Assembly: GCF_003173335.1 (NCBI RefSeq)
Contig: NZ_QGMZ01000061.1
Coordinates: 1 to 43,059, forward strand
Length of the DNA stretch: 43,059 nt
Direction: 5' to 3'
DNA from: Methanospirillum stamsii
Lineage (GTDB): Archaea > Halobacteriota > Methanomicrobia > Methanomicrobiales > Methanospirillaceae
Numbering within the stretch: the stretch's first letter is position 1; each line of letters starts with the position of its first letter. The notes below the pieces were generated by a model, which was not told the DNA's origin, did no database searches, and saw nothing but the letters and a program-made list of their open reading frames with translations. Positions 97 to 25,100 of this stretch are shown in pieces. A program made the translations under genes and the position numbers.

Positions 97-306
97 TTAA
101 TCTACAGCAACCATAACTTCACTAGATTTCATCACAGCATATGCAGTTTTACCTTCCTTAAGCCCAAGGTTTTCTGCCGCGTGAGCGGTTATTACTGAAG
201 TGACCGTAACACCATTTCCAATATCAATGACAATCTCTGCCATAATCGGTCCCTTTGTAACTGATTTAATTGTGCCTTTGAGACAGTTTCTTGCACTGAC
301 TTTCAT
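97..306 (-). CDS. mop: molbindin-like Mop-domain protein 1
   Basis: This is a single-domain molybdenum-pterin/oxyanion binding protein of 69 residues, the usual size of a molbindin. It begins with the signature MKVSARNCLKGTI, continues with a VTKGPIMAEIVIDIG strand and ends with the SSEVMVAVD strand typical of Mop/TOBE folds. Family members oligomerise in the cytoplasm and store or buffer molybdate or tungstate. A purine-rich GGAGAG stretch precedes the ATG. A paralogue with the same layout lies at 9627-9836, and the two share the string GCCACAGTA 20-23 bases before their starts. Molybdate versus tungstate preference cannot be read from the sequence. Confidence 0.9.
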   Translation of the reverse strand: MKVSARNCLKGTIKSVTKGPIMAEIVIDIGNGVTVTSVITAHAAENLGLKEGKTAYAVMKSSEVMVAVD

Positions 307-761: not shown

Positions 762-2555
762 ATGACAAAATCAGAGCCAGAAATATCAATACAATGTAAT
801 TATTGTGAATGCAGGTGTCAGATCTCGGAACACATGACCGGAAAATGTTTAATGTACAGGCATGAAAACGGGCAGATAATTGAGATATATCCTGATTGTT
901 ATCTCAATATTTATCCTGTTACTACTGAATCCATCCCCCTCCTTCATTTTTATCCGAATAGCAGGTTCCTTCTTATCAGTACAATCGGTTGTAACTTCGC
1001 TTGTGAAGGGTGTATATCTGAATTTCAATCATATGGAAATAAAACGGTATCGGAGACGCTGATAAGGCATACCCCGGAGGAGATACTGGATATCGCACGG
1101 AAAGGAAACTGCCGGGGAATTGCCTTTTGTCTGAATGAACCGACTGTTTCCCTGCCTACATTTCTCCGGGTTGCAAAAGCAGCCAAAGAGGCCGGATTTC
1201 TTGTCGGATGTTCAAGTAACGGATATATGACACAAGATACGGTAAATATTCTCATTCCATATCTTGATTATATTAACATCGGACTGAAGGGATATTCAGA
1301 TGAAAGATACCTGGAATGTGGTGCTACTTCAGCCTCACCGGTATTTCGCAATGTCCGGCTGTTTTACGATGCCGGAATAGCGGTGGAACTCTCTATCATG
1401 TACCTGAACGGACGGGAAATGGAAGTAATCCAGGCGGCAGAACATATAAAAAGTATCTGTCCGGACATACCATTTCAGGTCATGCGTTTTATGGCACCTG
1501 ACCGGGAAAAACTCGGATTTTTGGAGCCTTCACGAGAAGATGGAGAAGGTCTTTGTGGCCGGTTACGGGAGTATCTTCACCATGTGTATCTATTTAACAC
1601 CGTTGCTACAACCATGCTTGATTCACTCTGTCCTATCTGCGGTAATGTCATAATTCATCGTGTTTTCTTTGGTCCAATGGCAGCCAGGGTTTTATCCTGT
1701 GAACAGGACGGAGTGTGTTCCTGTGGGTATGTGTTCCCATATACGGGAGATATCACCCCGGTTCAAAAGGACGAAATAGAAGTTCTCGGTGGATATCGTT
1801 CAATTATGGGTGTCAGGTTTATTGCAGAGATACTTGGAATACTGGGAATTACTGAAAAAATATTGATCGATTCGTATTGCAATACGGTAATTGCGAACGG
1901 ATATCTTCACTCCCATCAGGAACAAAAAAGTACTCCGGACACATACTGCGAGATGGTTACCTATCTTGCCCACTTGTCCGGTCGGATAACTCAGGGTTCT
2001 TATTTTGTGAATTATATCCAATCGGTCATTTCAGATATCACCCATAAGGTTTCACATGCTCAAAAACCTCGTGTCATCACCGTCCTGAGTCATCCGTTAT
2101 TCCCCCTCTATGCTGATAGATTTGATAACAGCCTGGTAGAAATTGCCGGGGGGATAAGTCTGAACCGGGAGATTAACTATAATGAGACGGAACATGCAGA
2201 ATATACGGCATCTGAATTCAGTGCCCTTAATCCGGAGATTATCTTTATATCCAGCCATTTCTCAACCCCAGTCACGGATTTTATCAGTACATGCAGGAAG
2301 ACTGGTATTACTGCTGAAGCGATATCGAAAACACAGGTATATGCCCTGAATAAAAAGTATATGCCCACCAGTCCGCCCTGGATCATCGGCCTTATGGAGA
2401 TTGCAAATATTCTGCATCCGGAACTATTTCAGTATTCTCTTCCGGACGAGGAAGAACGGTTAAATAATCTATTTGAGAGTTTCCTTTCAGCATCAGACTC
2501 ATGTGCCGATAATTGCATTCTTATTCCAGATCAATCAGCGGATACAGCGTTTTAA
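762..2555 (+). CDS. radical SAM protein fused to a class III binding-protein-like domain
   Basis: The N-terminal half resembles radical SAM enzymes of the pyruvate formate-lyase-activating/AmmeMemoRadiSam type. It has a cysteine-rich entry segment (C12, C15, C17, C19, C29), the [4Fe-4S] motif C77-x3-C81-x2-C84, and a zinc-ribbon-like pair near residues 290-321 (CPIC and CSC). From about residue 435 to 556 the sequence matches the second lobe of BtuF/FepB-type binding proteins: KPRVITVL, an IAGG turn, a SALNPEIIFIS strand-loop, TQVYALN, and LMEIANILHPELF. No signal peptide is present, so this binding-like domain would be cytoplasmic. The start is supported by GGAG 8 bases upstream. The neighbouring NTPase and Mo/W genes suggest a cofactor or metal-ligand role. 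The reaction is unknown. Confidence 0.85.
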   Translation: MTKSEPEISIQCNYCECRCQISEHMTGKCLMYRHENGQIIEIYPDCYLNIYPVTTESIPLLHFYPNSRFLLISTIGCNFACEGCISEFQSYGNKTVSETLIRHTPEEILDIARKGNCRGIAFCLNEPTVSLPTFLRVAKAAKEAGFLVGCSSNGYMTQDTVNILIPYLDYINIGLKGYSDERYLECGATSASPVFRNVRLFYDAGIAVELSIMYLNGREMEVIQAAEHIKSICPDIPFQVMRFMAPDREKLGFLEPSREDGEGLCGRLREYLHHVYLFNTVATTMLDSLCPICGNVIIHRVFFGPMAARVLSCEQDGVCSCGYVFPYTGDITPVQKDEIEVLGGYRSIMGVRFIAEILGILGITEKILIDSYCNTVIANGYLHSHQEQKSTPDTYCEMVTYLAHLSGRITQGSYFVNYIQSVISDITHKVSHAQKPRVITVLSHPLFPLYADRFDNSLVEIAGGISLNREINYNETEHAEYTASEFSALNPEIIFISSHFSTPVTDFISTCRKTGITAEAISKTQVYALNKKYMPTSPPWIIGLMEIANILHPELFQYSLPDEEERLNNLFESFLSASDSCADNCILIPDQSADTAF

Positions 2556-2582: not shown

Positions 2583-3182
2583 ATGAGTAAAGACATATCA
2601 GAGATTTCCGGCCGGAGTTCGCCTTTATTTATCATTACCGGAGAACAGGGAGAAGGAAAAACTACCTATCTTAAACAGATCCTTGATAAACTCTCAAATG
2701 AGGATATCCGGATGAGTGGCATTGCAGCTCCCGGATATTTCCAGGATGGTCTTCGTTCAGGATTTGATCTGATTGATATTGCTACCGGAAAGTCAACAGA
2801 ACTCTGTTCCATAGTAAAAACTCCTGATTCTGAATTATATGGCAGATATTATTTCATGAACTCTGGTATTTCTTTTGGATGTAATGCAATTCTCAATCCA
2901 TTAAAAATAGGAAAAACAGATCTTGTAGTAATTGATGAAGTAGGAAGGTTTGAACTCAATGGAGTGATGTGGGCCGGATGTATCGACCTCCTGTATGAAA
3001 TGAATCATCCTCCGATGATCTGGACAGTAAGGAGGTGTTTTGTTGATGCTGTGTTAAAGAGATGGCCGTATCCAAAAAGTGTTATTGTGGAGATTAATTC
3101 TGTTCCCCAGTCAGATGTAATCCCGGAAATTTTACATGAGATAAGGCAATTCAGATCAATTTCGCCCTTAAAATGTAAATAG
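2583..3182 (+). CDS. DUF2478/THEP1-like P-loop NTPase
   Basis: This 199-residue protein has a Walker A motif GEQGEGKTT at 20-28 and a Walker B strand LVVIDEVGRFEL with D118 and E119. The IDEVGR(F/M)E block is characteristic of the THEP1/DUF2478 nucleoside-triphosphatase group. DUF2478 proteins are often encoded beside molybdate transport and molybdenum cofactor genes. The gene starts 27 bases after the radical SAM gene on the same strand, so co-transcription is likely. A role as an energy-coupling or metal-handling partner of the upstream protein is an inference. No membrane segment or signal peptide is visible. Confidence 0.8.
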   Translation: MSKDISEISGRSSPLFIITGEQGEGKTTYLKQILDKLSNEDIRMSGIAAPGYFQDGLRSGFDLIDIATGKSTELCSIVKTPDSELYGRYYFMNSGISFGCNAILNPLKIGKTDLVVIDEVGRFELNGVMWAGCIDLLYEMNHPPMIWTVRRCFVDAVLKRWPYPKSVIVEINSVPQSDVIPEILHEIRQFRSISPLKCK

Positions 3183-3376
3183 ACTGATTACTTAAGGATA
3201 TTTTTCATGCTACCTTTCAAAAAGGATCTATCCATGACGGGTTTTTTGAATAATCGGATGAGGATAAAGAATTTCCAGTTCTCATCATCGTAAGAATGAA
3301 AATCCGATTCATTGGCATAATATACTTTGAAAAGAACCATTACATATCTGAATAAACGAGATACAGAATAAAACTT

Positions 3377-4081
3377 ATGAACGTTGAAAGAGTTACAATT
3401 CAGTTCCTTCCGGGAGTGGTTTTGCAGAGAGAAGTGGACTATTTCAATGGAATAAACCATTTCCTCGTTCTTGATCTGGATGGAACCATCAGTGATCCCT
3501 TAACCGGCATTACTCATTCATTAAATTACGCATTACATATGTTTGGATATCCGGAAATGGATGAGAATACTGTTGCTCAATATATCGGGCCACCTCTAGA
3601 CATTATAATGAGAAAAATCACGAATTCTGATTCCAGTGAACTTATTTCACATATTATTCGTCATTATCGGGATTATTACAACCGGATAGGGTATGCAGAA
3701 AATACGCTCTATCCTGGGATATATGAGGGCCTCCAATATCTCATGGCAAAAAATATTCCTATGGGGATCTGTACCTCAAAGAGAGTTGATTTCGCAGAGA
3801 AAATTCTAAAACTATTTCAATTAGATCCCTTTTTTTCATTTATCAGCGGAGGGGATATTGGGATACAAAAAACCAATCAGCTCCGGCTCCTCGTTGAAAA
3901 TAAGATTATTGATAAAACTGCCATAATGATTGGTGACCGTGCAGTTGACATTCAGGCAGCTCATGAAAATGGTCTCAAATCAATAGGTGTTCTCTGGGGT
4001 TATGGAAATAAAGAAGAACTAGGTGAAGTATCCCCTTATCGGATACTGAATCATCCAGAGGAACTCAAAAAAATTATATGA
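3377..4081 (+). CDS. HAD-family phosphatase (phosphoglycolate phosphatase-like)
   Basis: A haloacid dehalogenase-type hydrolase of 234 residues. Motif I is VLDLDGTISD, with catalytic D33 and D35. Motif II is the threonine/serine of MGICTSKR, and the metal-binding motif IV is MIGDRAVDIQAA. The helical cap insert after motif I is that of subclass I, phosphoglycolate phosphatase-like enzymes. The substrate cannot be deduced. About 32 residues precede motif I, which is longer than usual, so a downstream GTG near residue 20 could be the true start. The gene follows a 194-bp gap and may be transcribed separately from the NTPase. Confidence 0.85.
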   Translation: MNVERVTIQFLPGVVLQREVDYFNGINHFLVLDLDGTISDPLTGITHSLNYALHMFGYPEMDENTVAQYIGPPLDIIMRKITNSDSSELISHIIRHYRDYYNRIGYAENTLYPGIYEGLQYLMAKNIPMGICTSKRVDFAEKILKLFQLDPFFSFISGGDIGIQKTNQLRLLVENKIIDKTAIMIGDRAVDIQAAHENGLKSIGVLWGYGNKEELGEVSPYRILNHPEELKKII

Positions 4082-4157: not shown

Positions 4158-4184
4158 AAAAAAACGATCCGGTTTTACCGGATC
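4158..4184 (-). terminator. terminator of moeA 1
   Basis: On the minus strand a perfect 8-bp stem GATCCGGT / ACCGGATC with a 3-base loop is followed directly by seven T residues. The stop codon of the leftward moeA-like gene lies in the loop, so the hairpin overlaps the gene end. This is a classical intrinsic-type structure. Confidence 0.6.
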
Positions 4185-5344
4185 ATAGAAACCTGAACTC
4201 TCTCTCCTTTCTTACACCCATCACTCCCCCGGGGAATATGAAGAATCGCATCAGCTTGGATCCCCACCTTCGGACCAAATCTTCTTTCTACCGGATTAAT
4301 GATAATTTTTCCATCGTTATTTTTAACCTGGACAAGATAGAAGACATCCCATCCCTGAAATGGTAAAACATCATTGGTTATCTCACCCATTACCACTTTT
4401 TTTGGAGGAATTGGAACTCCCCAGGATTTTAGAAGAGGGAGCACAAGTTGATAAAATGTCACCAGACATGATACTGATGGCCCGGGCATTCCAAAGACCG
4501 GTTTTCCATCAACAAGCCCACATGAAACAGGTTTTCCTGGCCCCATCGCCACTCCGTGAAAGAGAAGATCCCCACTCTTTTCAATGGCATCAACGGTATA
4601 GTCCTTTGATCCTGCAGATGATCCCCCAAACAGAATAACCATATCACAATCCTTACAGGCAGTACTGATTTTCGAGGACATCTTTTCCGGATCATCAGGA
4701 GTAATGGGATATATCTCTGATAATACACCGTATCTATTCAGATATCCTGATATCATCATCGAATTCGTATCAACAATCTGTCCGGGCACCGGTTCCTTTG
4801 CTGACGGAATTATCTCATCTCCAGTTGGAATTATACCTACTTTCCAACTCTTTGCTGAAATATCTCTGATTCCATAACTGGTAAGTGCTGCAGCATCATA
4901 TGGGGTAAAATAATGACCTGATTCAACAATGGTCTGCCCGGTAATAACATCCGTTCCTGCAAGTATCATATTCTGATTGGAAGAAACAGATCCTTTGATA
5001 ATAAATCTCTCATCATCAACCTTTTCGACTTCCTCAACCGGAATCACTGCATCATATCCTGCCGGCATAGGAAGTCCGGTATTGACACGAATCCCCTGAA
5101 CTTCAATTGGATTTTCAGGAGAGGCTGCTTTTGTATCTTCACTTCTAACTGCAATACCGTCCGGACCTGCAAGATGGACCGGAGGCATGGTTCGTGGTGA
5201 AATAACTGACTCTGCAAGAATTTGTCCGACAGCCTCATGGATAGGAACATTTCGGCTTTTTGGTAGGTACTGAAATGATGACAAAATGATTTTTTGTGCT
5301 TCCTTCATCGATATCAATTGTTCATGTGGCAAAATTCGTGGCAT
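4175..5344 (-). CDS. moeA: MoeA-like molybdopterin molybdenumtransferase 1
   Basis: A 389-residue protein of the MoeA/gephyrin-E family, which inserts molybdate or tungstate into adenylated molybdopterin. Visible blocks are LAGPDGIAVRSEDT (canonical AMDGYAVR), VNTGLPMPAGYDAVIPVEEVE, PTGDEIIP, ILFGGSSAGSKDYTVDAI (canonical GGVSVGDKDY) and VFGMPGPSVSC (canonical GLPGNPVS). The GPGKPVS block keeps the PGKP element. GGAG lies 8-11 bases before the ATG. A paralogue of exactly the same length is at 10056-11225. The deviations from the LPGNP consensus suggest a specialised paralogue, but the overall fold assignment is secure. Confidence 0.88.
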   Translation of the reverse strand: MPRILPHEQLISMKEAQKIILSSFQYLPKSRNVPIHEAVGQILAESVISPRTMPPVHLAGPDGIAVRSEDTKAASPENPIEVQGIRVNTGLPMPAGYDAVIPVEEVEKVDDERFIIKGSVSSNQNMILAGTDVITGQTIVESGHYFTPYDAAALTSYGIRDISAKSWKVGIIPTGDEIIPSAKEPVPGQIVDTNSMMISGYLNRYGVLSEIYPITPDDPEKMSSKISTACKDCDMVILFGGSSAGSKDYTVDAIEKSGDLLFHGVAMGPGKPVSCGLVDGKPVFGMPGPSVSCLVTFYQLVLPLLKSWGVPIPPKKVVMGEITNDVLPFQGWDVFYLVQVKNNDGKIIINPVERRFGPKVGIQADAILHIPRGSDGCKKGERVQVSMIR

Positions 5345-5642: not shown

Positions 5643-6704
5643 ATGAACAATCAGTTATTTAGATGCCTGATAAGCATTTTTCTCATTGTAAACGCATCTG
5701 GTTTTTGCGCAGTATTCGCTGAAGAAACCAGAACGATTACTGACATGACCGGAAGAACGGTTATTATCCCGGTGGTAATAGATTCTGTTCTTGGTACAGC
5801 GCCTCCTACTACTGAAGCGGTCTACATGATAGATCCCGATGTTCTGATTGGACTCAATTTTGCATTTAACACCTCAAAATATGTCTCATCAAAGTATACA
5901 AACCTCCCGAATGTTGGTGGTCAACAGATGGGAAATACTCTTAATTATGAAACATTTCTCTCGATGAACCCTGATATTGTCCTCTATGGAGCCACAGTAG
6001 GGACTGATGTATCAGACCAGATTGAAAGTATCCAGACAAAACTCGCTCCTATTCCGGTGGTTGGTGTTGAAGATTCAACGAATGCAGAAGATTATGGACG
6101 TGAGATTGAATTCCTGGGAGAACTTCTCAACGCAGAGGAAGAGGCTGATGATCTGAATATATTTTATGACAACGTGTACCAAACGGTGAACTCTAAGGTT
6201 GCTACTATTCCTGATGAGCAGAAAGTCCGTGTATACTATGCCGAAGGTCCGGATGGCCTGAAGACAGAACCTGAAGAATCAGCTCATGCCCAACTCATAA
6301 AAATTTGTGGCGGTAATAATGTAGCGGATGTTCCGGAGAAGAGTGGTGGCGGGATGACACCAGTCTCAATGGAACAAGTTCTTGCATGGAATCCAGACCT
6401 TATACTCGCCGGTGACAGCAAATTTTACAATTCAGTCCTCTCTGACCCTAATTGGAAGGATATCAATGCAGTGAAGAATAAAAAAGTCTACCTGATTCCA
6501 AACCAGCCATTTGGGTGGATTGACCGGCCACCGGGAGTTAACCGTATCATTGGTATCCCATGGCTGGCCAAAGTTTTCTATCCGGACTTATTTACTGATA
6601 TTGATCTGCCGGCACTAATTAAGGAGTTTTATTCCAATTTCTTACACTATGATTTGACTGATGATGAGGTCAATACAATCATTACCAGTTCTGGTCTTAA
6701 GTAA
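5643..6704 (+). CDS. ABC transporter class III substrate-binding protein
   Basis: A secreted binding protein of 353 residues in the BtuF/FepB/MolA family. Residues 1-26 form a signal peptide with a VFA-EE cleavage site. The mature protein opens with TRTITDMTGRTVIIP, the standard start of this family, followed by IDPDVLIGLNF, the MNPDIVLYG loop, LAWNPDLILAG, KKVYLIP, and a WLAKVFYPDLF ending. The family binds corrinoids, iron chelates or, in MolA, molybdate and tungstate. The setting among Mo/W genes makes an oxyanion or its chelate plausible. No BtuC/BtuD-type permease or ATPase is in the window, so its transporter must be encoded elsewhere. Confidence 0.87.
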   Translation: MNNQLFRCLISIFLIVNASGFCAVFAEETRTITDMTGRTVIIPVVIDSVLGTAPPTTEAVYMIDPDVLIGLNFAFNTSKYVSSKYTNLPNVGGQQMGNTLNYETFLSMNPDIVLYGATVGTDVSDQIESIQTKLAPIPVVGVEDSTNAEDYGREIEFLGELLNAEEEADDLNIFYDNVYQTVNSKVATIPDEQKVRVYYAEGPDGLKTEPEESAHAQLIKICGGNNVADVPEKSGGGMTPVSMEQVLAWNPDLILAGDSKFYNSVLSDPNWKDINAVKNKKVYLIPNQPFGWIDRPPGVNRIIGIPWLAKVFYPDLFTDIDLPALIKEFYSNFLHYDLTDDEVNTIITSSGLK

Positions 6705-6866: not shown

Positions 6867-7739
6867 ATGAGCCAGGATGAGAATATTCAATGCTGGATTA
6901 ATTGCTGGAATTCCACCGCAGAAACAATTAATTTCTTTTCAGATGATATGCAGGCAGAACGATGGAATAAAAGGGCTGAAACATTTGGAAAAGATCTGGA
7001 CGGAAAAAGAAAAAACAAGAAAGATGCTGATTTTTTTAAACTACTGGGTGACGCAGGTTTCAATCCGGAAGGTGCAACTGTTCTGGACATCGGATGTGGT
7101 CCTGGAACACTAACCTTACCTCTTGCAAGAGCCGGGGCAAAAGTAACATCACTTGATATCTCTACCAAAATGCTTGAGAGATTAAAAGAAACAGCGGAAA
7201 ACGAAAATCTCTCTGTAAATCCTATCGAATGTTCATGGTGGACCGCCGATATCGATTCTTTAGGATTTCGAAACGCATTTGATCTGGTCATTGCATCATT
7301 TACACCGGGAATAAGGGATGTTGAAACATTTGACCGGATGATTGCCTGTTCAAAAAAATATTGTTATTACAGTAACTTTATCCGGAGAGATCCTGTAAAA
7401 ATTCCGAGCGATATATATATCCATATTTTGAAAACAACTCCTGAAAATGAATTCTTTGCTGCAGGTTTTTTTTACCCGTTCATGTATCTTTATACCCTGG
7501 GCTATCACCCGATTGTAAAACTTGATCATAAAGCAGAAGATAGCAGTCAGAATTGTGACGAAGCAGCTGACAATACGATTGGATATTTAGAGATGAAACA
7601 TGAACTCTCCGATGAAAGCAGAGAGAAAATCAAAGAATATTACAAAAGTATCTCTGAAAATAATGTATACTACATTCATTCTGATACATACAAGGGAATG
7701 ATGATCTGGTCTATTGAAAAATACAAAAATCAGGTTTAA
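6867..7739 (+). CDS. class I SAM-dependent methyltransferase
   Basis: A 290-residue Rossmann-type methyltransferase. Motif I is VLDIGCGPGTLTLPLA near residues 74-89, the acidic residue of motif II is in VTSLDIS, and motif IV is DLVIASFTPGI. The roughly 70 residues in front are helical and charged, with two early tryptophans and many lysines. The C-terminal 120 residues form a variable substrate region. It is encoded just downstream of the class III binding protein on the same strand, but with a 160-bp gap and its own candidate operator. The substrate is unknown; a link to a metal-chelating or corrinoid compound is only an inference. Confidence 0.82.
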   Translation: MSQDENIQCWINCWNSTAETINFFSDDMQAERWNKRAETFGKDLDGKRKNKKDADFFKLLGDAGFNPEGATVLDIGCGPGTLTLPLARAGAKVTSLDISTKMLERLKETAENENLSVNPIECSWWTADIDSLGFRNAFDLVIASFTPGIRDVETFDRMIACSKKYCYYSNFIRRDPVKIPSDIYIHILKTTPENEFFAAGFFYPFMYLYTLGYHPIVKLDHKAEDSSQNCDEAADNTIGYLEMKHELSDESREKIKEYYKSISENNVYYIHSDTYKGMMIWSIEKYKNQV

Positions 7740-7847: not shown

Positions 7848-8600
7848 TTAATCAATTGCAATTCCAGAAAAACTGATATACTCTTCTGATACGACATGAA
7901 CCGGTGATTCGTCCGGAATATTTGATAATGATTTCAGGTCGTTGGCTTTTCCGCTCCAAACAACCTTTCCTTTTTCGAGCATCATGACCTTATCACCGAT
8001 AATTTTTGCATCTTTAAGTGAATGAGTAACCAGAATCGACGGTTGCTTACTATTTACCAGGTGTTCCCGAAGTTCAAGCCGTATCTTATCCCTGGCTGAC
8101 TGGTCTAAAGCCGTAAGAGGTTCATCAAGTAATAGCATATGAGGCTTAACAATCAAAGCACGTGCAAGAGCAACCCGTTGACGTTGTCCTCCGGAAAGAT
8201 TAGTAACCCGTTCGTTTTTTACATGTTCAATCCCCAGATTCTCCAGGAATCGATCCACTTCTCCATTAAACTGGTTTTTAGGAATTTTCCGCATCTTAAG
8301 CCCGAACGAAATGTTTTCAAATACGGTCATGTGAGGAAAGAGGGCGTAATTTTGAAAAACATATCCTATATTGCGCTCTTCTGGTGGGAAAAAGATCCCC
8401 TTCTCACTTGAAAATAATTCACTATTATTTAGAATGATTTTTCCTTCATCCGGTCCAAGGAGCCCGGAAAGAAGATTTAAAACCGTTGATTTTCCGGATC
8501 CATTTTCTCCGAGAAGGACCAATACTTCTCCAGGATTGACGGTTAATTCAACATCCAGCAGAAAATCCCGTAATTTTTTTACCAGACGTGCGTAAAGCAT
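7848..8600 (-). CDS. molybdate/tungstate-type ABC transporter ATP-binding protein
   Basis: The ATPase subunit of a ModC/WtpC-type importer, 250 residues from the start chosen here. It shows Walker A GENGSGKST, the Q-loop VFQNYALFPHMTV, the signature LSGGQRQRVALARAL, Walker B MLLLDEPLTALD and the switch histidine in LVTHS. The ATG at 8600 is preferred over an upstream in-frame ATG at 8648 because GGAGGT precedes it at good spacing and it overlaps the permease stop as TGATG. ModC proteins often carry a C-terminal Mop domain. This one stops soon after the nucleotide-binding domain, and stand-alone Mop proteins flank the locus instead. Confidence 0.88.
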   Translation of the reverse strand: MLYARLVKKLRDFLLDVELTVNPGEVLVLLGENGSGKSTVLNLLSGLLGPDEGKIILNNSELFSSEKGIFFPPEERNIGYVFQNYALFPHMTVFENISFGLKMRKIPKNQFNGEVDRFLENLGIEHVKNERVTNLSGGQRQRVALARALIVKPHMLLLDEPLTALDQSARDKIRLELREHLVNSKQPSILVTHSLKDAKIIGDKVMMLEKGKVVWSGKANDLKSLSNIPDESPVHVVSEEYISFSGIAID

Positions 8601-9397
8601 CAGGACGACCTCCCGGAAATCATTCTGATGAGTATCAGAATTATACACGACATCACAATAAGAACTAGTGAAAGGGCAATGGAAGCAGTAAGATCACTTT
8701 GCATCATCCCGTAAATTGCAAGTGGCATGGTCTGTGTTTTCCCGGGTAAATTCCCGGCAACCATGATGGTCGCTCCGAATTCTCCTATTCCCCGGGCAAA
8801 GCCCAAAATTATCCCTGAAACTAGTCCCGTCCATGCTAGAGGAATGGTAACTTTAACAAACGTTACAAATGGGCCGGCACCCAGAGTCCGGGCTGCAGAT
8901 TCGTATACCTGGTCTACCATTGCAAATGCAGTCTTTGCCTGTCTGATGTAGAGCGGGCCTGCAACAAAGACTTGGGCCAGTATGACTGCAAATGTGGTAA
9001 AAATGATGGTAATCCCGATATCATCCAGAAATCCCCCAATCAGTCCGCGTCTGCCAAAGAGAACCAGCAATGCCAGACCAGCAACGGACGGTGGAAGAAC
9101 AATTGGCAGGTCAAGCAGTGTTTCAACAAAATTTCGTCCACGATATTCATGTCTTGCATTCAGATATGCAATTGGAGTTCCAAGGAGTACAATAATCACG
9201 GTTGCCATTCCTGCCGTTATAAGAGAGAGCACTATGGCACTGTTGACATCCGGATCCAGGATAGCGGTAACAAAGTCTTCGGGTGAAATCCTGAAAAGGA
9301 GAGAGAGTAGCGGCAAAGTAAAGAAAAGAATGGTGATGATGATGATAAGGCTAAATATCGCAATTGCAAATTTAGTTTTTATCTTTTTTGAACTCAT
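8600..9397 (-). CDS. molybdate/tungstate-type ABC transporter permease
   Basis: A 265-residue ModB/WtpB-type inner-membrane permease with about six hydrophobic segments. The EAA loop region is ESAARTLGAGPFVTFVKVTIP. The following stretch, FARGIGEFGATIMVAG and PGKTQTMPLAIY, is highly typical of molybdate/tungstate permeases. It is translationally coupled to the ATPase gene by a one-base stop/start overlap. No ModA or WtpA solute-binding gene adjoins it, although such genes are normally next to the permease. Whether the ion is molybdate or tungstate cannot be decided here. Confidence 0.88.
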   Translation of the reverse strand: MSSKKIKTKFAIAIFSLIIIITILFFTLPLLSLLFRISPEDFVTAILDPDVNSAIVLSLITAGMATVIIVLLGTPIAYLNARHEYRGRNFVETLLDLPIVLPPSVAGLALLVLFGRRGLIGGFLDDIGITIIFTTFAVILAQVFVAGPLYIRQAKTAFAMVDQVYESAARTLGAGPFVTFVKVTIPLAWTGLVSGIILGFARGIGEFGATIMVAGNLPGKTQTMPLAIYGMMQSDLTASIALSLVLIVMSCIILILIRMISGRSS

Positions 9398-10055: not shown

Positions 10056-11225
10056 ATGCCCGGATCCTTTAATACAGATATTCTTATCTCCATGAAAGAG
10101 GCTCAAAAGATCATATTATCTTCATTTCACCATACCCCACAAACCAGAATCATCCCGGTAAAAGATGCCAAAGGATACATCCTTGCCGAACCGGTGTTCT
10201 CCCAGCGTACAATACCACCCCTGCCTCTGGCAGGAATTGACGGTATTGCAATCAGGAGCAAAGAGACGAAAGGTGCCTCAGAAAAATGCCCACTTCAGAT
10301 TGATGGCATAAAAGTTAATGTAGGGCTTCCAATGCCGGAAGGATATGATGCAGTTGTCCCGGATAAAGAAATTCAGGTTAAAGGGCCGGATCATTGGGTT
10401 ATCTCATCCGTTGTATTTCCCCATTATAATGTCATAAAAAAAGGTTCGGATGCAATGAAAGGTCAGATGGTTATCCAAAAAGACCAATATATCATCCCCT
10501 ATGACATTGCCACGCTTTCGCATTTTGGTGTCCGGAATGTAAAGGTAAAAAAATGGAAGATCGGACTTATCGCTACCGGAGACGAGATAGTTCCCCTGAA
10601 AAAAGATCCCCTTCCCGGACAGATTACCGATACTAATACCATCATGATATCCGAATACATCAGGGAGTATAAAGTTCTCACTGAACTCTATCCAATCACT
10701 CCTGATGATCCGGACCTTATTGCAAAACAGATAACATCCGCATGTGAAAATTGTGATATGGTTCTAGTCTTTGGAGGTTCATCCGGCGGTTCGAAGGATT
10801 ATACCGTAAAAGCCATTGAAAAAAGCGGGTCAGTACTCTTTCACGGGGTGGCTATGTTCCCGGGTACATCTGTTTCATGTGGATCTGTCAAGGATACACC
10901 TGTATTTGGAATGCCCGGACAGGCTATTGCAAGTCTCATTACCTTTTTTAATCTGGTATTTCCGATGCTAAAATCATGGGGTGTTCCAATCCCTGCAAAA
11001 AAACATGTTATCGGGGAGATAACCGAAGACATTAACCCATGTAACCAGTTTGATATCTTCCATTTGGTTTCTACAAGATATTCAGATGGAAAGATCAGCA
11101 TTTTTCCACTGGAATGGGCATTTGGACATATGACCGGTATGGCGGCAGATGGAATCCTTCATCTTCCCCGATGGAGTAACGGGTTTAGAAAAGGTGAAAG
11201 AGTCCAGGTTATACTTATCAGGTAA
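10056..11225 (+). CDS. moeA: MoeA-like molybdopterin molybdenumtransferase 2
   Basis: The second MoeA-like protein, also 389 residues and collinear with copy 1. Conserved blocks are ISMKEAQKIILSSFH, LAGIDGIAIRSKETK, VNVGLPMPEGYDAVVPDKE, ATGDEIVP, VFGGSSGGSKDYTVKAIEKSG and FGMPGQAIASL. It departs further from canonical MoeA than copy 1: PGKP is PGTS, and the LPGNPVS loop is MPGQAIA. Those loops bind pterin and metal in the family, so altered metal preference or reduced activity is possible. It is transcribed divergently from mop 2, echoing the association of moeA 1 with mop 1. Confidence 0.87.
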   Translation: MPGSFNTDILISMKEAQKIILSSFHHTPQTRIIPVKDAKGYILAEPVFSQRTIPPLPLAGIDGIAIRSKETKGASEKCPLQIDGIKVNVGLPMPEGYDAVVPDKEIQVKGPDHWVISSVVFPHYNVIKKGSDAMKGQMVIQKDQYIIPYDIATLSHFGVRNVKVKKWKIGLIATGDEIVPLKKDPLPGQITDTNTIMISEYIREYKVLTELYPITPDDPDLIAKQITSACENCDMVLVFGGSSGGSKDYTVKAIEKSGSVLFHGVAMFPGTSVSCGSVKDTPVFGMPGQAIASLITFFNLVFPMLKSWGVPIPAKKHVIGEITEDINPCNQFDIFHLVSTRYSDGKISIFPLEWAFGHMTGMAADGILHLPRWSNGFRKGERVQVILIR

Positions 11226-16451: not shown

Positions 16452-19400
16452 TCACCCAGTAACTGCCGAACAGAGTAACTCAGCCTGTTGCATCACTGTC
16501 TGAATGGCATTCTCCTGTTTGTCCGGAGGATACCCGTTCGCCCGTAGTATTCTTTTTATCGCAACTCTCATCTTTGCCCGGACTGATTTACGTGATGACC
16601 AGTCAATCGTAACATTTTCCTTGATCGTCTTTACCAGATCCTGGGCGATTTTCTTGAGAATTTCATCACCCAGAATCACCACCGCACTATCATTCACGCC
16701 AAGAGCGTCATAAAAGGCCAGTTCTGCCTCGGTTAGTCCCAGATCCTCTCCTCTCTGCTGAGCCTCCCGGATCTCCCTCGCGATTTCAGATAATTCTTTC
16801 AGGATCTCCTGGGTTGTTACTTTCCGGTTGTTGTATTTATTTATCGTCTGCTCAAGCATCTCAGAAAACTTGCGGGCTTCGGTGGTGTTTTTCCGGGTTC
16901 GTGCCCGGATCTGGTCATTCAGCAGCCGGGTCATGGCAGCGACTGCCACATTCTGGTTCTTGTATTTCAGGAGGTCATTGAGGAACTCTTCGGAGAGGAC
17001 TGAGATATCTCCGACATCCTTCCCCATCTCCTTGAAGATATCGACGATGCCAAGGGGAACAATTGATTTTGAAACGATCTGTTTTACCGCAAGATTGAGT
17101 TCATACTCTGATCTTCCTGCTCCTTCTGATGTTTTTATGAGTTGTGCCCGAACGGCCTGGAAATACGCGACATCTTCCCGGATCTCAATGGCTTTTTCAT
17201 GGGGGAGAGCAAGGGCAAATGCCTGGGAGAGTTCAAGCACATGCTGCATAAAGTCTGATTTCCGCTCGGGATAATAAAGGACATAGTTGAATCCTGCCTG
17301 AAGGATGGAGAGTCGGGTTGCTGCCGGAGCTCCCCGCCAGCCTGACCAGTCAAACCCATGGAAGAGATGACAACAAACCTCGTACTTCTCCATCATCTTA
17401 TCAACGATCCTCTCCTGGTCAAACACGGGATCTCCCTTGCCTTTACTCTCCGTGTAGGTGACCAGGGCTTTTTTCAGTTCTTCGGCAAGACCGATGTAGT
17501 CTACAATGAGTCCGCCGGGTTTATCCTTCCATACCCGGTTTACCCTGGCGATTGCCTGCATAAGGGTGTGACCCTTCATGGGCTTGTCGATATACATGGT
17601 ATGCAGACAAGGAACATCAAATCCGGTCAGCCACATATCACGGACAATTGCGATTTTGAATGGATCTTCCGGATCCTTGAATCGTTTTGCAAGGAGTTCC
17701 CGGCCTGATTTTGGCCTGATATGTTTCTGGAAATCTTTTTCATCGCCTGCTGAACCGGTCATGACCACCTTCAGGAACCCGTCATTGTCTGAATCAGAAT
17801 CCCAGTCCGGACGCCTCTCAACCAGTGCCTTATAGAGTTCCACACAGATCCGCCTGCTCATGCAGACGATCATCGCTTTCCCTTCGATGGCATCTGAGCG
17901 CTGTTCAAAATGGCTGATGAGGTCATCAGCAACCTCATTGATTCGCTTCTCATCTCCGACGATGGCTTCGAGTGCCGCCCATTTTGTCCGGAGTTTCTCT
18001 TTTCTGATGACCTCTTCGTTCTCGGTGACTTCTTCAAACTCCTGGTCAATGAGCGGTTTTATCTGCTCATTCATCCTGATATCGACTATACGGCTTTCGT
18101 AATAGATAGGAACGGTTGCCTTGTCTTTGATGGCCTGCTGAATATCATAGACACTGATGTATTCACCAAAGACGTTCCTTGTCACTTTATCCTGAAGGTC
18201 GATGGGTGTCCCGGTAAACCCGATAAATGAGGCGTTCGGGAGTGCATCACGGATATACTTGGCAAATCCGTAACTAATCTCTCCTTTTTTGCTCACCTTC
18301 CCATGCATCCCGTACTGGCTCCGGTGTGCCTCATCAGCGATCACAATGATGTTCTTCCGGTCAGAGAGGAGGGGATAGGTCTCCTTGTTCTCATCTTCGG
18401 GGAAGAACTTCTGAATGGTGGTGAAGACGACACCACCTGAGGCGACACTGAGTAATGTCTTCAGATGGTCCCGGCCCTCTGCCTGGATGGGTGTCTGCCG
18501 GAGGAGTTTTCTGCATCGGGAGAAGGTTCCGAAGAGTTGATCGTCAAGATCATTCCGGTCGGTGATGACCAGGATCGTCGGGTTCTGGAGTGATGGTGTC
18601 TGGATGATCTTTCCGGAGTAAAAGACCATGGTGAGACTTTTTCCTGACCCCTGGGTATGCCAGACAACCCCACACCGGCGGTCTCCGGCGTCGCTGATTG
18701 CTGTTTCTGTAGATCTGACTGCGAGGTTTACGGCATGGTACTGGTGGTATCCGGCCAGTTTCTTGATGGTGTTTCCCCGTTCATCCTCTTCAAAAACGAT
18801 GAAGAACCGGATAAGGTCAAGAAGCCGCTTCTTGTCACAGACTCCCCGGATCAGAACTTCGATCTCCGGGATATGGTTTGGGGCTTCCTGTGCTCCGTCA
18901 ATTGTTCTCCACCGGGAGAACCGCTCGAGTGATGCGGAGAGGGTTCCAATCCTAGTCTGTATTCCGTCGGAGATGACCGCCATGGTATTGTATGAAAAGA
19001 ATGAGGGGATCTCCTGCATGTAGGTCTGAAGCTGGTTATGGGCAATGGTCAGGGTAGCCCGTTCATCGGTGGGGTTTTTGAGTTCAAAGATGATGACCGG
19101 AATACCGTTGATGAAGAGGACGATATCAGGCCTTCGGTGGTTTTTTCCTTCCTGAATGGTGAACTGGTTGACGACAAGGAATTCGTTGTTTTCAGGGTGT
19201 TCAAAGTCGATTAGCCTGACCTGATCTCCACCAACGGATCCATCCTTCCGCCGGTATTCTACCGTGATTCCCCCGGAGAACATCTCATGAACGGTCTTAT
19301 TATTCTGGATAAGGGTGGTATGACCGGGATTGGTGAGGATCTTCAGTGCTGCTTCATGGGCGTCTCGGGGGAGAGTCTTGTTGAGCCGGAAGATGGCATC

Positions 19401-19562
19401 TTCAAGTCTGGATACCAGGAGATATTCTTCAAACGAGGTCCGGATTTGATTTCGTTCTCCGGGTGCGACCTCATACCCATAGAGGACCTCGTACTCAAGG
19501 TCACGAAAGATGTCAAGTGCCGTTTCTTCTACGTCAGATTCACATAATCCCGTTGTTGTCAT
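16452..19562 (-). CDS. hsdR: type I restriction endonuclease subunit R
   Basis: The 1036-residue motor and nuclease subunit of a type I restriction-modification complex. The N-terminal PDDEXK nuclease has D146 in RRPDIVLF and E160-x-K162 in FELK. The helicase follows with Walker A TQGSGKS (303-309), DEAH at 409-412, a GFTGTPI motif III region and the MQAIARVNR motif VI. The C-terminal several hundred residues form the coupling and helical domain. Length is normal for the family. It is the last gene of the operon, 5 bases after the AlbA_2-domain gene. It appears intact. Confidence 0.96.
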
Positions 19563-19567
19563 GATCT

Positions 19568-21025
19568 TTACCGTTTGTCGGCAGTGATTTCAGAGAGATA
19601 TTCGTGTAATACTTCTTTTCCAGCAGGGGTTATCCGGTACTTCTGATTTTTGCTTGTTGGTCTGTCCGGAATGGTGAGCTCAAGAAGACCATCTTCTACT
19701 AATGGCTGGAGAATGTGTTTTCGGAATTTAGTCCTGTCAGTCCGTCCAAATAATGAGAGTATTTCTCCCAAATTGCTCTCTATCTGGCATATTTTCAGGA
19801 GATCCATCTTCTCTCTTCTTAGTGCTATCTTAGTGCTATCCTGGTGCCATCTTAGTGCCTTCTTAGTGCCATCCTGGTGCCGGTCAGGGGGCTGGATCGG
19901 GGTGAAGGTCACGGTGAAAAACCCGTCTGCATCAAAGACCGGGTCCGGGCACCCGGATTCCCGTGCTCCTTCCCGCATCCGTTCGATTCCGGTCCCGGCT
20001 TTTTCGATAAACCCGATCCGGTGATAGAGGTCAGCAATAATTGGATTTCTCCTGACACTCTTATGTCCGAGATCGGTCTGCTGCATCCCTGGAGGAAGGC
20101 CACCCGGACTAATTATCTCAATCCGGTCAGAGAAGATCTGTACAAAGACGTTCGCTCCTTCGATAAACCAGTCCCGGTGCATGACGGCATTCGTGATTGC
20201 CTCCCGAAGTGAAGCCATCGGATACTCGGGGATCTCTTCTCTCTTCAGACCCTCAATCCGGTACGAAAGCCGGGTATTCCGCTCGATGAAGCGGAGACTA
20301 TCCTCGATATCGGCAACTGCTCCGCCTGCGAAATCCTTCCGGTCAAGAATTCGGACATTGGTCGTTCCCTGAAAGAGGATGCAGGTGATGTATGCCTGGT
20401 TGAAGAATCTCCGAGGCTCTTTTGCAAAGAAGAGGATACCGGCATTCCTAAAGAGGAGTTTTCCGCCGGACCGTTCTGTTGCTTCGATATTAACGAGAAT
20501 ATCTTCCCGGTTTCCGTTCGATGATATCCCGCTCTTTGAGAGCCAGTTTGTGAATTTGCCAGCGTCAAAGTCTTGTGGATATTTGAATTTCGAGGAAATG
20601 GAGAGGTCAAACCTGATGGCTCCTTCTTTCTGGAAGAAGGTCCGGATCTCTTCACGGGTGAGTTTCTGGGTTACGGCTCCCTGTCGCCAGAAGAATCCGT
20701 CGCTACACTGGACCGGTTTTTCAGAGCTCTCCCGAACGGTGATGATGGTGACGGTGTCGATATGGGTGATAAGGATCTTCACTGGCGGGTCACAGTTCCG
20801 GGCTATGTCCTGTATTCGTGCTCTGATATCGTTCGTGTCTTTGATGCCCCGGACTGATCCATCGTCCCGGACTCCAAGGAGGATTTTGCCTCCGGCGGTG
20901 TTTGCGAAGGCTACGAGTTCCCGTGCTAAGGCAGAGGAGAGAGATTCCTTGTATTCGAGCATGGAGCCTTCGCCTTCCTGGAGCAGGATCGAGAGATCAG
21001 ATTGGTTCATATCAGGAAACACCAA
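19568..21025 (-). CDS. AlbA_2/Schlafen-domain putative transcriptional regulator
   Basis: A 485-residue protein. Residues 9-120 form an AlbA_2 (Schlafen-like) domain: [28 protein letters not shown] and [18 protein letters not shown]. About 255-375 hold a GHKL ATPase-like segment ([40 protein letters not shown]). The C-terminal 75 residues look like a winged helix. Such proteins commonly accompany type I restriction genes and are thought to be regulators or accessory nucleases. Residues 387-412 are encoded by six 11-bp tandem repeats. The gene overlaps hsdS by 14 bases and is followed by hsdR. Confidence 0.85.
19819..19884 (-). repeat. six 11-bp tandem repeats inside the AlbA_2 gene
   Basis: On the minus strand the units are GCACCAGGATG, GCACTAAGAAG, GCACTAAGATG, GCACCAGGATA, GCACTAAGATA and GCACTAAGAAG. 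Three units make 33 bp, which encodes an imperfect 11-residue protein repeat of the form HQD-x-TK-x-ALR. Because 11 is not a multiple of 3, gain or loss of a single unit would shift the frame before the winged-helix end. Confidence 0.9.
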
Positions 21026-22211
21026 TGAATTGTTCGGGGTTGTCTATGGAGAGTTCACCAGAGAGGAGTTTGGGGAGGAGTGTGTCACGGATAGAGGATA
21101 AATGATGTGAATTTTCTTTGTTATATCGATATTTTACATATAGAGGTTGAATAAAGGAAGAATATTTCTGACAAATCTCTTTAGGGGGCAACACTTTAGG
21201 GATTTTCGCCAAATTTTGTTGTGATACTTTTAATTGAACTGCACCGGTCACATAAGGATGGATGTCAATGAATTGCAAGAATTGCATCAATAATTCTGTA
21301 GATACATCTGCCTTCCCTTGTAATATGTGGGCATGATTATTAACCCAAAATTTCCCCCATACATATTGAAGAACAGGAGAATTATCTTTATTTATTACAG
21401 ACCCATCTTCGGCCAATAAAACATAGATACCATCAAAAATGTATTCATCAATAAAATCCATAACCGAAGCTGCTCCATAATATGGATAAATCCCCTTCCG
21501 GGTTTCTCTCTCCCTACCAGAAAGTGGGATTCTTTTACTATCAAATATTGAGTAAATCTCGCTTAATTGAGTGATTCTCCACCCTTTCGGTATCTCCTGC
21601 CCCTCCACGGTCTCAAACTCGCTCGGAAACAGGGCCGCCGTTGCCGCATCCATCCCCTCGGGCTGCTGGGTCTCGGCCTTAGCCCGGACCGGGTCGAAAT
21701 CGATGAACCAGCTCTTGAATAAGGCCCGGGCGATGGATTCGAGTGTTTCATTCATCCGGCGGTTGAGTTCAATCTTGTCGTCGAGGGTACCGAGGATGTG
21801 GGCGATGGCTTTCTGAGTAACTAAAGAGGGGACATGTATTTCAATATGAGATATATAATTACGATTAAGTGAAGCTTGAGCACTTCCCGAATTAAAAGGT
21901 TTAAATTCTATGTTTTTTAAGGCATAATAGACAAAAAGGGGGAAATTCCCTTTATAATCAGTCACATAAAGAACAGTATTATGAGGCCAATGCGGTTCAT
22001 CACAATAGAAAACATTACCAAAGGATGCTCCACTTCTACCAATAGTAACTCCCGGTTTATCAACAATTATTGTATCATGAAACCCATTTGGACCTGCAGA
22101 ACCAATCACAGGAACATTACCATTTTTTCGATCAGATTCTGTTAAATCATGACCTCTTTGAAGAGAGACAAAGTGATCTAATCGTTTTTTATTATATTTT
22201 TTTTCAATCAT
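21012..22211 (-). CDS. hsdS: type I restriction specificity subunit S
   Basis: The DNA-recognition subunit, 399 residues, with two target-recognition domains (about 1-130 and 205-345). They are separated by the conserved helical spacer TLDDKIELNRRMNETLESIA, continuing RALFKSWFIDFDPV, and a second helical segment sits at the C-terminus (LSSIRDTLLPKLLSGEL). Both half-domains look complete. The gene lies far downstream of hsdM because two or three nuclease genes separate them, but it is in the same direction. Base composition of the recognition domains is more AT-rich than that of hsdM and hsdR, as is common for exchanged specificity genes. Confidence 0.94.
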   Translation of the reverse strand: MIEKKYNKKRLDHFVSLQRGHDLTESDRKNGNVPVIGSAGPNGFHDTIIVDKPGVTIGRSGASFGNVFYCDEPHWPHNTVLYVTDYKGNFPLFVYYALKNIEFKPFNSGSAQASLNRNYISHIEIHVPSLVTQKAIAHILGTLDDKIELNRRMNETLESIARALFKSWFIDFDPVRAKAETQQPEGMDAATAALFPSEFETVEGQEIPKGWRITQLSEIYSIFDSKRIPLSGRERETRKGIYPYYGAASVMDFIDEYIFDGIYVLLAEDGSVINKDNSPVLQYVWGKFWVNNHAHILQGKADVSTELLMQFLQFIDIHPYVTGAVQLKVSQQNLAKIPKVLPPKEICQKYSSFIQPLYVKYRYNKENSHHLSSIRDTLLPKLLSGELSIDNPEQFIGVS

Positions 22212-22225
22212 GATTTTTATGAATT

Positions 22226-22360
22226 CTATAATGTATTTTTTATAAGCATTTCCAAATCAATATCTTCACCTAATATATGTACCATGAACTCTTGAAAACC
22301 AAAGCAATGATATTCTCCCCATTTTACTTCTCCCGGTTTTATTCCACTTAGTACCTTCAA
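22226..22360 (-). CDS. possible small protein or gene remnant with TTG start
   Basis: A 44-residue frame starting at TTG (22360) reads KVLSGIKPGEVKWGEYHCFG, then FQEFMVHILGEDIDLEMLIK. The composition is protein-like, whereas the other frames here are broken. It sits between the decayed DUF1016 copy and hsdS. No ribosome-binding site is obvious. It may be the C-terminal remnant of a lost gene rather than a functional peptide. The family was not recognised. Confidence 0.35.
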   Translation of the reverse strand: MKVLSGIKPGEVKWGEYHCFGFQEFMVHILGEDIDLEMLIKNTL

Positions 22361-22389
22361 AACTTAATTTTCAGTTGTACCTTTAACAA

Positions 22390-22867
22390 TTCACATTATG
22401 GTAGATCGGTAAATGCTCAGTAAACCCGATTCCACTGTCAGATTGCCCCAACAATACAACATGTTCATCAACCCTGTACATCATAGCAGTTCCATCGGCA
22501 ACTATTCGCCAATAACTCGTTCATACTAATCAAGCAACCAGGAACATATCTCCATTTGACTCTTAACTGCAGCAAGATCTCTCTCCAACTTCAGGTCAAA
22601 TGTGATAAAGAGATGGATCGGGTGGAGTAAGAAATGGTGTTCAAAATAAAATTTCCGCTGATATTTATACATCAAAGGAAAAAGTGTAAAAAAATTAGAC
22701 ACATGTAATTGTCGTGACAGTGTCGTTACAATACCCTTATCAGAAAAAAATGCCGATATCGGACCTCCAATTACTGGAATGAATGATAAACCAGCTTTTA
22801 CTCCTGCATGTGTATAATCCCTATAACTCGGCTGCAAATCTTCACAGATATCTTTCTTTTCACTCAT
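22390..22867 (-). pseudogene. decayed DUF1016 nuclease gene behind an unrelated N-terminus
   Basis: The open frame at 22526-22867 (113 codons) starts with a segment of unknown type (THAGVKAGLSFIPVIGGPIS). From residue 44 it resembles DUF1016 proteins: GIVTTLSRQL matches IVQTLSGQL, and FDLKLERDLAAVKSQM matches [16 protein letters not shown]. After the stop, similarity continues with in-frame stops and a frameshift: YERVIGE matches YERVPGE, and DEHVVLLGQSDSGIGFTEHL (about 22400-22470) matches [20 protein letters not shown]. The middle of the family domain is deleted. The first ATG overlaps the stop of the upstream DUF1016 gene, so the short frame may still be translated. Confidence 0.75.
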
Positions 22868-24861
22868 CCCGGATCACCCCCTCAACAAACTCCCGGATCT
22901 CCTCAGTCCCCGGCAGTCCAACCTGATATTTCGAGACAAACACCGAATTCTCTATTCCGGCACAGGCATACTGCACAAGGGCATGATTCTTTTCTGTACA
23001 CAGAAGGAGCCCGACCGGAGGATTATCCCCTTCGGTCATTAGATGAGCCTTGAAGTAATTCAGATACGTATTCAGCTGCCCCAGCGCCTCATGCGAAAAC
23101 CCGCCGGTCTTCAGTTCAATCAGGACATGACACTTCAGCACCCGGTGATAAAACACGAGGTCCACAAAGAAGTACTCATCACCGATCAGAATCCTCTTCT
23201 GCCTGGCCTCAAAACAGAATCCATACCCGAGTTCAAGCAGAAATGCCTCCAGTTTTTGAAGAAGGGCCTGCTCAAGATCAGATTCGTACATCACGTCCTG
23301 GCTTTTGATCCCGAGAAAATCGAACACATAGGGATCGCGGATGATCAGATGGGGTGAATCTGCCAGTGCTCCAGCTTGAACATGCTCAGATAATGCTTTC
23401 TTATCGTGAGAGAGAGCAGAACGTTCAAAGTACAGACTCTCGATCTGTCGTTTCAGCTCCCTCACTGACCAGTTCCCTCTGACACATTCCACCTCGTAAA
23501 ACCGGCGTTTCAGGGGATCATCAATGGGCATCAGGAGAGTAAAATGGCTGAATGAAATAGATTGAATCAACCGATCATCGAAAAAGAGTAAATCCGGCGA
23601 AATATTGCCTTCTGATCCCTCTTGCAGGACCTTAACCGTTCCTGTCAATTGGGCAGACAGTGTCTGCCCAATTCCAAGAGTTGTACATTGGGCAAACACT
23701 GTCTGCCTAATGTTGGGGTAAGCCATATAAAATTGCCGATAGAGTTTGAGAGAACGATAGGAAAACCCATCCTGCCGGGGAAGGTGGCTCGCAAGATCCT
23801 GGAGTATATGATCACCATATGAGGCCCTATCTGAACCATTCTGTTCAAACTCTTTGATATAATATCCAATAAGCCAGTTTCTCACCGTCAAAGAGCGGTT
23901 TACTGCTTTAGCAGCCTGTTGTGTCAGTTCTTCATGTAATTGGGAGATGGAGTTAACAAGATCAGAGAAATTCACTTATGTACACCCCTTCCCCATACCA
24001 ATATCCTCATCCGGCCTGCAGAACTGATGTTGTGCTCTCTCCATCGCACTCTTCAGTTTCGCCTCAAGGAGTTCCCTCGGCGGCAGTTCGGTCAGATATT
24101 CAGCAACCCGTATCCCACTGTCCGAAAGCCCGAGCAGCTCCACATGTTCATCAGACTTCCCGGCACACAAGATAAGACCCATCGGTGACTCTTCACCCGG
24201 AACCCGTTCGTATTTGTCAAGCCACCGGAGATAGAGCTCCATCTGACCCTTGTCAGCAGCCTGAAACCTCCCCAGTTTCAGGTCAATCGCAATAAGACAC
24301 CGGAGCCGGCGGTGAAAGAACAGGAGATCAATATAATAATCCTCTGCGTCGATGGTGATTCTCTTCTGCCTCGCGATAAAAGAGAAATCAGAACCCATCT
24401 CAAGAATGAACCGCTCGATCTCCCGGATAATACCTGATTCAATATCCTTTTCAGAGTAGGTATCAGAAAGCCCGAGGAAATCAAGGAAATAGGGATCACG
24501 AAAGACCAGGTCCGGACTCATCTGGTCTTCTGTCCGGAGAGCTTCGAGCTCCTGCCTGGCTAACTCTTCAGGTTTTCTTGAAAGAGCGGTCCTCTCAAAG
24601 AGCAGCCCCTGGATTTTTGCTTTTAGAAGACGAACACTCCATCGTTCGATCCTGCACATCTCGGTGTAAAAGTCCCTTTGTAGATCATCATCTATTTTAA
24701 TGAGTTCAACAAAATGTGACCAGCTCAATTGTCCAGACAGTGTCTGGACTATTGCGGGTTCATGATAGAGCTCAGCAAACCGAACCATTGAGAATACATT
24801 TGCCCGACTGAATCCCCTTCCGTACTCATGGAGTAATTGTCCAGACAGTGTCTCGACAATT
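22708..24861. repeat. family of five 25-27-bp palindromes inside DUF1016 genes
   Basis: Palindromes centred on GACAGTGTC or GACACTGTC occur at 23647-23673 (perfect 13-bp arms, AATTGGGCAGACA), 23687-23711 (12-bp arms, two mismatches), 24727-24753 (13-bp arms, one mismatch), 24835-24861 (13-bp arms, one mismatch) and, degenerate, at 22708-22732. They all encode the peptide pattern QTLS-x-QL or close variants. The coordinates given span all five; the DNA between them is coding sequence. Confidence 0.85.
22860..23975 (-). CDS. DUF1016 (YhcG-like) PDDEXK nuclease family protein, copy 2
   Basis: A 371-residue member of the DUF1016/YhcG family. The helical N-terminal domain shows VRNWLIGYYIKEFEQNG, LSFSHF-type SISFSHFTLLMPI and ECVRGNWSVRELKRQI. 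The C-terminal PDDEXK nuclease-like domain has QKRILIGDEYFFVDLVFYHR with its aspartate and LIELKTG with E-x-K. It starts at GTG (23975), directly adjacent to the stop of copy 1. Residues around 95-115 contain two motifs, RQTVFAQ and GQTLSAQL, encoded by palindromic DNA. It sits inside a type I restriction operon, where the family is often found; a role in DNA processing or defence is inferred. Confidence 0.87.
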   Translation of the reverse strand: MNFSDLVNSISQLHEELTQQAAKAVNRSLTVRNWLIGYYIKEFEQNGSDRASYGDHILQDLASHLPRQDGFSYRSLKLYRQFYMAYPNIRQTVFAQCTTLGIGQTLSAQLTGTVKVLQEGSEGNISPDLLFFDDRLIQSISFSHFTLLMPIDDPLKRRFYEVECVRGNWSVRELKRQIESLYFERSALSHDKKALSEHVQAGALADSPHLIIRDPYVFDFLGIKSQDVMYESDLEQALLQKLEAFLLELGYGFCFEARQKRILIGDEYFFVDLVFYHRVLKCHVLIELKTGGFSHEALGQLNTYLNYFKAHLMTEGDNPPVGLLLCTEKNHALVQYACAGIENSVFVSKYQVGLPGTEEIREFVEGVIRDE

Positions 24862-25100
24862 TTCTTTCCATACTCTCCCCTGTCATTCTGGAGAACTTCC
24901 TTGTAAATACGTGTCCCAATATTCCAGTATAACAGAACCGTCTCCCGGTTTACTCCATATGCTACCCGGTTTCGGGTTGATGAAATCATCTCACGGATTT
25001 CATGTAAAAGAACCGAGTACCCAGTATCCTGATGCACTCCCTCTTCCTGGTTTGGGGTTGTGACTTTAGCAGGTACAGGTTTTGATGGACTATTCTTCAT
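23976..25100 (-). CDS. DUF1016 (YhcG-like) PDDEXK nuclease family protein, copy 1
   Basis: A 374-residue protein with the complete DUF1016 layout. The helical N-terminal domain contains [20 protein letters not shown] and [19 protein letters not shown]. The PDDEXK-like domain has [18 protein letters not shown] with D258 and then AIDLKLG with D273-x-K275. The two near-identical peptides at 81-89 and 117-125 are each encoded by a palindrome. The start ATG overlaps the hsdM stop by four bases (ATGA), which couples its translation to the methylase. Divergence from copy 2 is large, so they are old paralogues rather than a recent duplication. Confidence 0.88.

Follow-up and report, generated by a model that had tools for sequence, protein, structure and literature searches.

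Class III binding proteins normally catch metal complexes outside the cell, and radical SAM enzymes require an anaerobic cytoplasm. In methanogens, the reduction of CO2 depends on Mo or W and nitrogen fixation on Mo or V, and little is known about how strict anaerobes acquire chelated trace metals and unpack them. For one class III protein, MolA, we know of no radical SAM partner. It serves MolBC-A, a low-affinity molybdate importer of Haemophilus influenzae (PMC4031551). Radical SAM enzymes encoded within uptake operons have been described for heme: ChuW and HmuW open the imported heme anaerobically (PMC10404700, PMC10035031).

Here we analysed a window of 43,059 nucleotides from Methanospirillum stamsii (contig NZ_QGMZ01000061.1). 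In it, the product of gene 762-2555, named rSAM-PBP, joins a radical SAM enzyme to part of a class III binding protein (Table 1). Fusing half a binding protein to a radical SAM enzyme would represent a new coupling of transporter and enzyme. Our search of the literature on this fusion or its operon gave nothing relevant, in line with a previous sequence-only reading of the window, which knew of no described system of this kind. The import-and-processing route proposed below appears to be undescribed so far.

Like MolBC-A (PMC4031551), the present locus is linked to an importer of the FecCD type with a class III binding protein, and the two binding proteins are related. MolA differs in carrying free molybdate or tungstate. 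The resemblance to ChuW, HutW and HmuW lies in the combination of a radical SAM enzyme and methyl transfer within an uptake operon (PMC10404700, PMC10035031), but the fusion represents another radical SAM family, its methyltransferase is a separate protein and its binding lobe is fused.

Table 1 Features of the rSAM-PBP fusion and of its neighbours in the window.
Feature	Position	Strand	Remarks
Mop-type molybdate-binding TOBE domain protein	100..306	-	69 aa
rSAM-PBP fusion gene	762..2555	+	ATG start, 597 aa; radical SAM with C-terminal class III binding-protein lobe
N-terminal Cys motif	rSAM-PBP residues 12/15/19/29		
Radical SAM domain	rSAM-PBP residues 72-221		C77-x3-C81-x2-C84
CPxC...CxCG motif	rSAM-PBP residues 290-321		
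GGYR	rSAM-PBP residues 343-346		
Helical segment	rSAM-PBP residues 345-405		
Linker helix	rSAM-PBP residues 409-430		
Lobe	rSAM-PBP residues 435-580		
NTPase_1/THEP1 P-loop NTPase	2583..3182	+	28 bp downstream of the fusion gene
MoeA-like molybdopterin molybdotransferase	4175..5344	-	
Exported class III (Peripla_BP_2) binding protein	5643..6704	+	member of the partner clade
Class I SAM methyltransferase, MT3 type	6867..7739	+	homologues adjoin other rSAM-PBP genes
ModC/WtpC-like ABC ATPase	7848..8648	-	
ModB molybdate ABC permease	8600..9397	-	TIGR02141, 225 bits, above cut-off
Second MoeA-like protein	10056..11225	+	

The radical SAM half

The N-terminal ~330 residues of the fusion are a radical SAM enzyme. 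Pfam Radical_SAM (PF04055) matched residues 72-221 with an E of 2e-15, and the product has the CX3CX2C motif of the superfamily within a radical SAM fold, as the sequence-only reading had recognized. In an alignment of the 63 full-length homologues, C77, C81 and C84 were invariant (63/63), and so were C12, C15, C19, C29, C290, C293 and C321. Nearly invariant were C319 (59/63), C117 (61/63), C150 (62/63) and C511 (60/63). The GGY(R) motif preceding the helical segment was conserved as well. C511 belongs to the fused lobe. The exported protein aligned with it from this window (5643-6704) lacks an equivalent residue, so C511 may be part of a site.

Among curated families, AmmeMemoRadiSam (AmmeMemoSam_rS, TIGR04337) gave the best match to the first 323 residues. 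The aligned stretch runs from the N-terminal Cys motif through the radical SAM core to the CPxC...CxCG region, but the score of 101.5 bits lies far enough under the curated cut-off of 220 to place the product outside this family. The fusion also differs from AmmeMemoRadiSam in its additional class III lobe and in its location in import operons. Neither AMMECR1 nor Memo appeared among the neighbour families scanned at the homologue loci, a general scan rather than a dedicated search. The ChuW/HutW/HmuW family was absent from the NCBIfam matches of the 762-2555 product, which thus falls outside it. With Foldseek, the radical SAM half matched PFL-activating enzyme, and NifB structures were also among the matches.

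The rSAM-PBP product had no hydrophobic N-terminus, its hydropathy peaking at 0.89, whereas the exported proteins had a median of 2.77. This agrees with the signal peptide having been judged absent before, and the product is predicted to be cytoplasmic, without an export signal.

The fused binding-protein lobe

The C-terminal part gave a Peripla_BP_2 (Pfam) score of 24.6 bits over residues 388-532, slightly below the cut-off of 27.5. A profile made from 31 homologues matched solved class III binding proteins over residues 376-574, with E values down to 1e-15. HMM-HMM comparison aligned residues 391-580 of the fusion with residues 147-342 of the exported protein 5643-6704 (99.8% probability, E 1.4e-28). 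The AlphaFold model of residues 335-597 had a pLDDT of 76 and a pTM of 0.76, and another model of the 762-2555 product had a pLDDT of 68. Foldseek matched the former to 4hn9, 4pag, 4ovk, MolA (3psa) and BtuF (5ysc), the best E being 7e-8, and YiuA and CeuE were also among the structural matches of the lobe. The class III fold suggested earlier for this region was therefore recovered by structure prediction, homologue profile and HMM-HMM comparison alike. Its extent had to be revised: the linker and second lobe span residues 391-580, instead of a lobe at 435-556.

The first lobe is missing from the fusion. The alignment begins only at residue 147 of the exported protein, and the helices at 345-405 take the place of the missing part. 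With the class III proteins (Peripla_BP_2; 4hn9, 4pag, 4ovk, MolA, BtuF) the fusion shares the long linker helix and the second lobe; unlike them, it has no two-lobed clamshell and no signal peptide, is attached to an enzyme and carries C511. Having only one lobe, the fusion cannot bind a ligand as a normal clamshell does. The other half of a ligand site would have to be supplied by a second subunit or by another part of the fusion, either its radical SAM barrel or its helical segment.

Distribution and operon structure

The 63 full-length fusion loci in the alignment came from methanogens of the Methanomicrobiales and Methanosarcinaceae and from sulfate reducers of the Desulfobacterota. Their conservation rules out a chance match or a frame artefact. 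In the window's phylum, 60 of 393 genomes had a strong match, mostly full length, and some had a solo radical SAM gene only. The phylum of Desulfobacter vibrioformis had matches in 12 of 395 sampled genomes, eight of them full length, and the family of this species in 15 of 86 genomes. Several genomes had two or three copies of the fusion.

To describe the neighbourhoods, the ORFs of ~70 loci were clustered and labelled by profile HMMs. A recurrent operon encoded rSAM-PBP together with a class I methyltransferase, an exported binding protein, a FecCD permease and an ATPase; at many loci, the stop codon of one gene overlapped the start codon of the next. Transport genes of the FecCD type were abundant in this survey of homologues, as would be expected if the metal-transport setting proposed from the window alone is general. 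A methyltransferase of any type lay within 1 kb of the fusion gene at 45 of the 63 loci (main type, 37/63), and an exported binding protein within 5 kb at 36 of the 63. At many Desulfobacterota loci a TonB-dependent receptor was interposed in the operon, and some rSAM-PBP loci were without a nearby transporter. In L118, L119 and L120, a CbiK-type chelatase, a band-7 protein and an ExbB/ExbD set flanked the operon with its TonB receptor.

In several Desulfobacteraceae, the fusion operon also included another radical SAM gene, without the lobe, and a gene for a protein of no known family. The same pair, the lobe-less gene being followed by the gene for this ~389-aa protein, was found beside FecCD genes in L017 (7865-10014), L100 (9419-11559) and L108 (6224-8394), L017 being located elsewhere in the window's own genome. 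The ~389-aa protein (c23) had no match in Pfam, NCBIfam or PDB and was missing from most fusion-bearing genomes. L103 had a broken rSAM-PBP copy (3351-3542 and upstream), consisting of a 63-aa fragment and further pieces interrupted by a stop; the adjacent methyltransferase and binding-protein genes were intact.

In the window itself, the Mop, MoeA and molybdate-transport genes recognized in the sequence-only reading were recovered as a Mop/TOBE protein, two MoeA, ModB and ModC. The MoeA_C domain was under the Pfam cut-off in both MoeA paralogues (4175-5344 and 10056-11225). The gene following the fusion had been taken for a DUF2478 NTPase, which is not the label that fits best. Its product scored 71 bits with NTPase_1 and only 11 bits with DUF2478 (curated cut-off 22.3, E 0.28), and is better assigned to the NTPase_1/THEP1 type than to DUF2478. 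Such a gene adjoined the radical SAM gene only in the window's subclade.

Evolution of the lobe and its exported partner

In a maximum-likelihood tree of the lobe, in which bootstrap was not fully settled and the Desulfobacterota fused lobes were loosely placed, the exported proteins formed a single group (100/99), separate from all fused lobes. A recent duplication of the neighbouring exported gene is thereby ruled out. The exported protein 5643-6704, already noted as a relative of the fused lobe, fell into a clade of 26 sequences from archaea and bacteria (support 100/99) dedicated to rSAM-PBP operons, 20 of the 26 being co-operonic with the fusion. The pairing of fusion and exported protein is therefore old and has been retained.

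Molybdenum, tungsten and vanadium context

ModB was found within 12 kb of 15 of 65 rSAM-PBP loci and of 5 of 199 control FecCD loci, a distance cut-off picked after inspection of the data. Counted by genus, ModB was near the fusion in 5 of 24 genera versus 1.0 expected (P 0.002). Without the window's genus the enrichment was weak (4/49 versus 3/142 control loci, P 0.07). The association with Mo transporters is strong mainly in the window's own genus, in Methanospirillum-type genomes.

A second fusion copy in four Methanosarcina genomes adjoined vnfH and vnfDGK (L061 8837-17742, L064 826-10764, L124 and L125), and in one of the four anfDGK and a FecCD transporter were also close. Class III binding proteins and FecCD transporters were found near the vnf-linked copies in at least two of these genomes. 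One Methanomicrobiales copy had nifE, nifN-like and AnfO-like genes ~5-9 kb away. At Desulfobacteraceae loci, a MOT1 molybdate transporter, a molybdenum hydroxylase or a formate dehydrogenase was near the fusion, a proximity which may reflect only how common such enzymes are in this family.

The closest solved structures to the exported protein 5643-6704 were 4pag, 4ovk, MolA (3psa) and 4hn9, with a sequence similarity to MolA of 85 bits. Based on the ModABC neighbours, the V-nitrogenase genes, nifEN and this similarity, we favour Mo, W or V as the metal that would be imported.

Class III binding-protein genes formed arrays in L016 and L103, accompanied by DUF364/DUF4213 and O-methyltransferase genes. 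The arrays adjoined genes for molybdopterin-oxidoreductase and dinucleotide-binding domains, resembling formylmethanofuran dehydrogenase subunits.

Proposed function and alternatives

We tentatively propose, as a reading somewhat short of probable, that rSAM-PBP is a cytoplasmic radical SAM enzyme of anaerobic metal-complex import, which frees Mo, W or V from a modified chelator. Entry of the chelated metal would depend on an ABC importer of the FecCD type and on the exported class III protein, which in this window is 5643-6704. In the cytoplasm, the fused lobe, which stems from the binding-protein family of this exported partner, would hold the complex at the radical SAM barrel. The radical chemistry of the enzyme, with the class I methyltransferase acting at the same time or afterwards, would then alter or open the chelator and make the metal usable. 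A role in taking over and modifying an imported complex is suggested by the common family of the fused lobe and the exported partner, and, by analogy with ChuW and HmuW acting on heme, the enzyme most likely acts on the complex from its own importer. The loci without an importer, the absence of half of the usual cleft and two bacterial lineages with cobalt chelatase genes speak against this scheme.

The sequence-only reading had also considered that the protein senses a metal complex, for which we found no evidence. The conserved methyltransferase partner points to catalysis, and a sensor function is therefore not favoured.

Salvage of corrinoids or other tetrapyrroles, which we consider unlikely, would involve a BtuCDF-like importer, with the radical SAM enzyme and the methyltransferase remodelling or opening a cobamide, F430 or heme-type ring. 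HmuW and ChuW in heme operons are a direct precedent (PMC10404700, PMC10035031), and the fused lobe shares its fold family with BtuF, IsdE, ShuT and HmuT. In L097, a cobalamin riboswitch (8821-9007) and a cobalamin operon with CbiK were directly downstream of the rSAM-PBP gene, the related loci L118-L120 carried CbiK within ~10 kb of it, and the TonB receptor of L015 scored best with a heme-type subfamily model. However, the TonB receptors at other loci scored best with siderophore models, members of the HutW/ChuW family were absent from the match lists, and no cobalamin riboswitch was found at the other bacterial loci scanned. A riboswitch scan for ligand clues was likewise negative in the window and at most loci.

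A further, rather improbable reading is that iron is freed anaerobically from siderophores or other Fe chelates, with no special connection to Mo, W or V. It is consistent with YiuA and CeuE being among the structural matches and with the FecCD and Peripla_BP_2 families mostly handling Fe complexes. In Methanosarcina barkeri, the Fe/S source affects two "iron(III) dicitrate-binding proteins" that lie side by side (PMC10846266) and have a putative link to the rSAM-PBP operon. The repeated Mo and V context speaks against the iron reading. We doubt even more strongly a NifB-like role, in which a metal cluster or its precursor would be assembled by the radical SAM domain and carried by the lobe. 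Cofactor assembly of this kind would fit the two nitrogenase-linked paralogues and the Foldseek matches between the radical SAM part and NifB structures, yet most loci are tied to importers and have no nitrogenase genes, and by sequence this part is AmmeMemoSam/PFL-activase-like. The release of Mo, W or V from an imported chelate remains our preferred reading, and it is testable, since the fusion is present in the genetically tractable Methanosarcina.

Elsewhere in the window, the ORFs at 16452-26695 resemble a type I restriction-modification system interrupted by two additional nuclease-like ORFs, as judged from the translations only.
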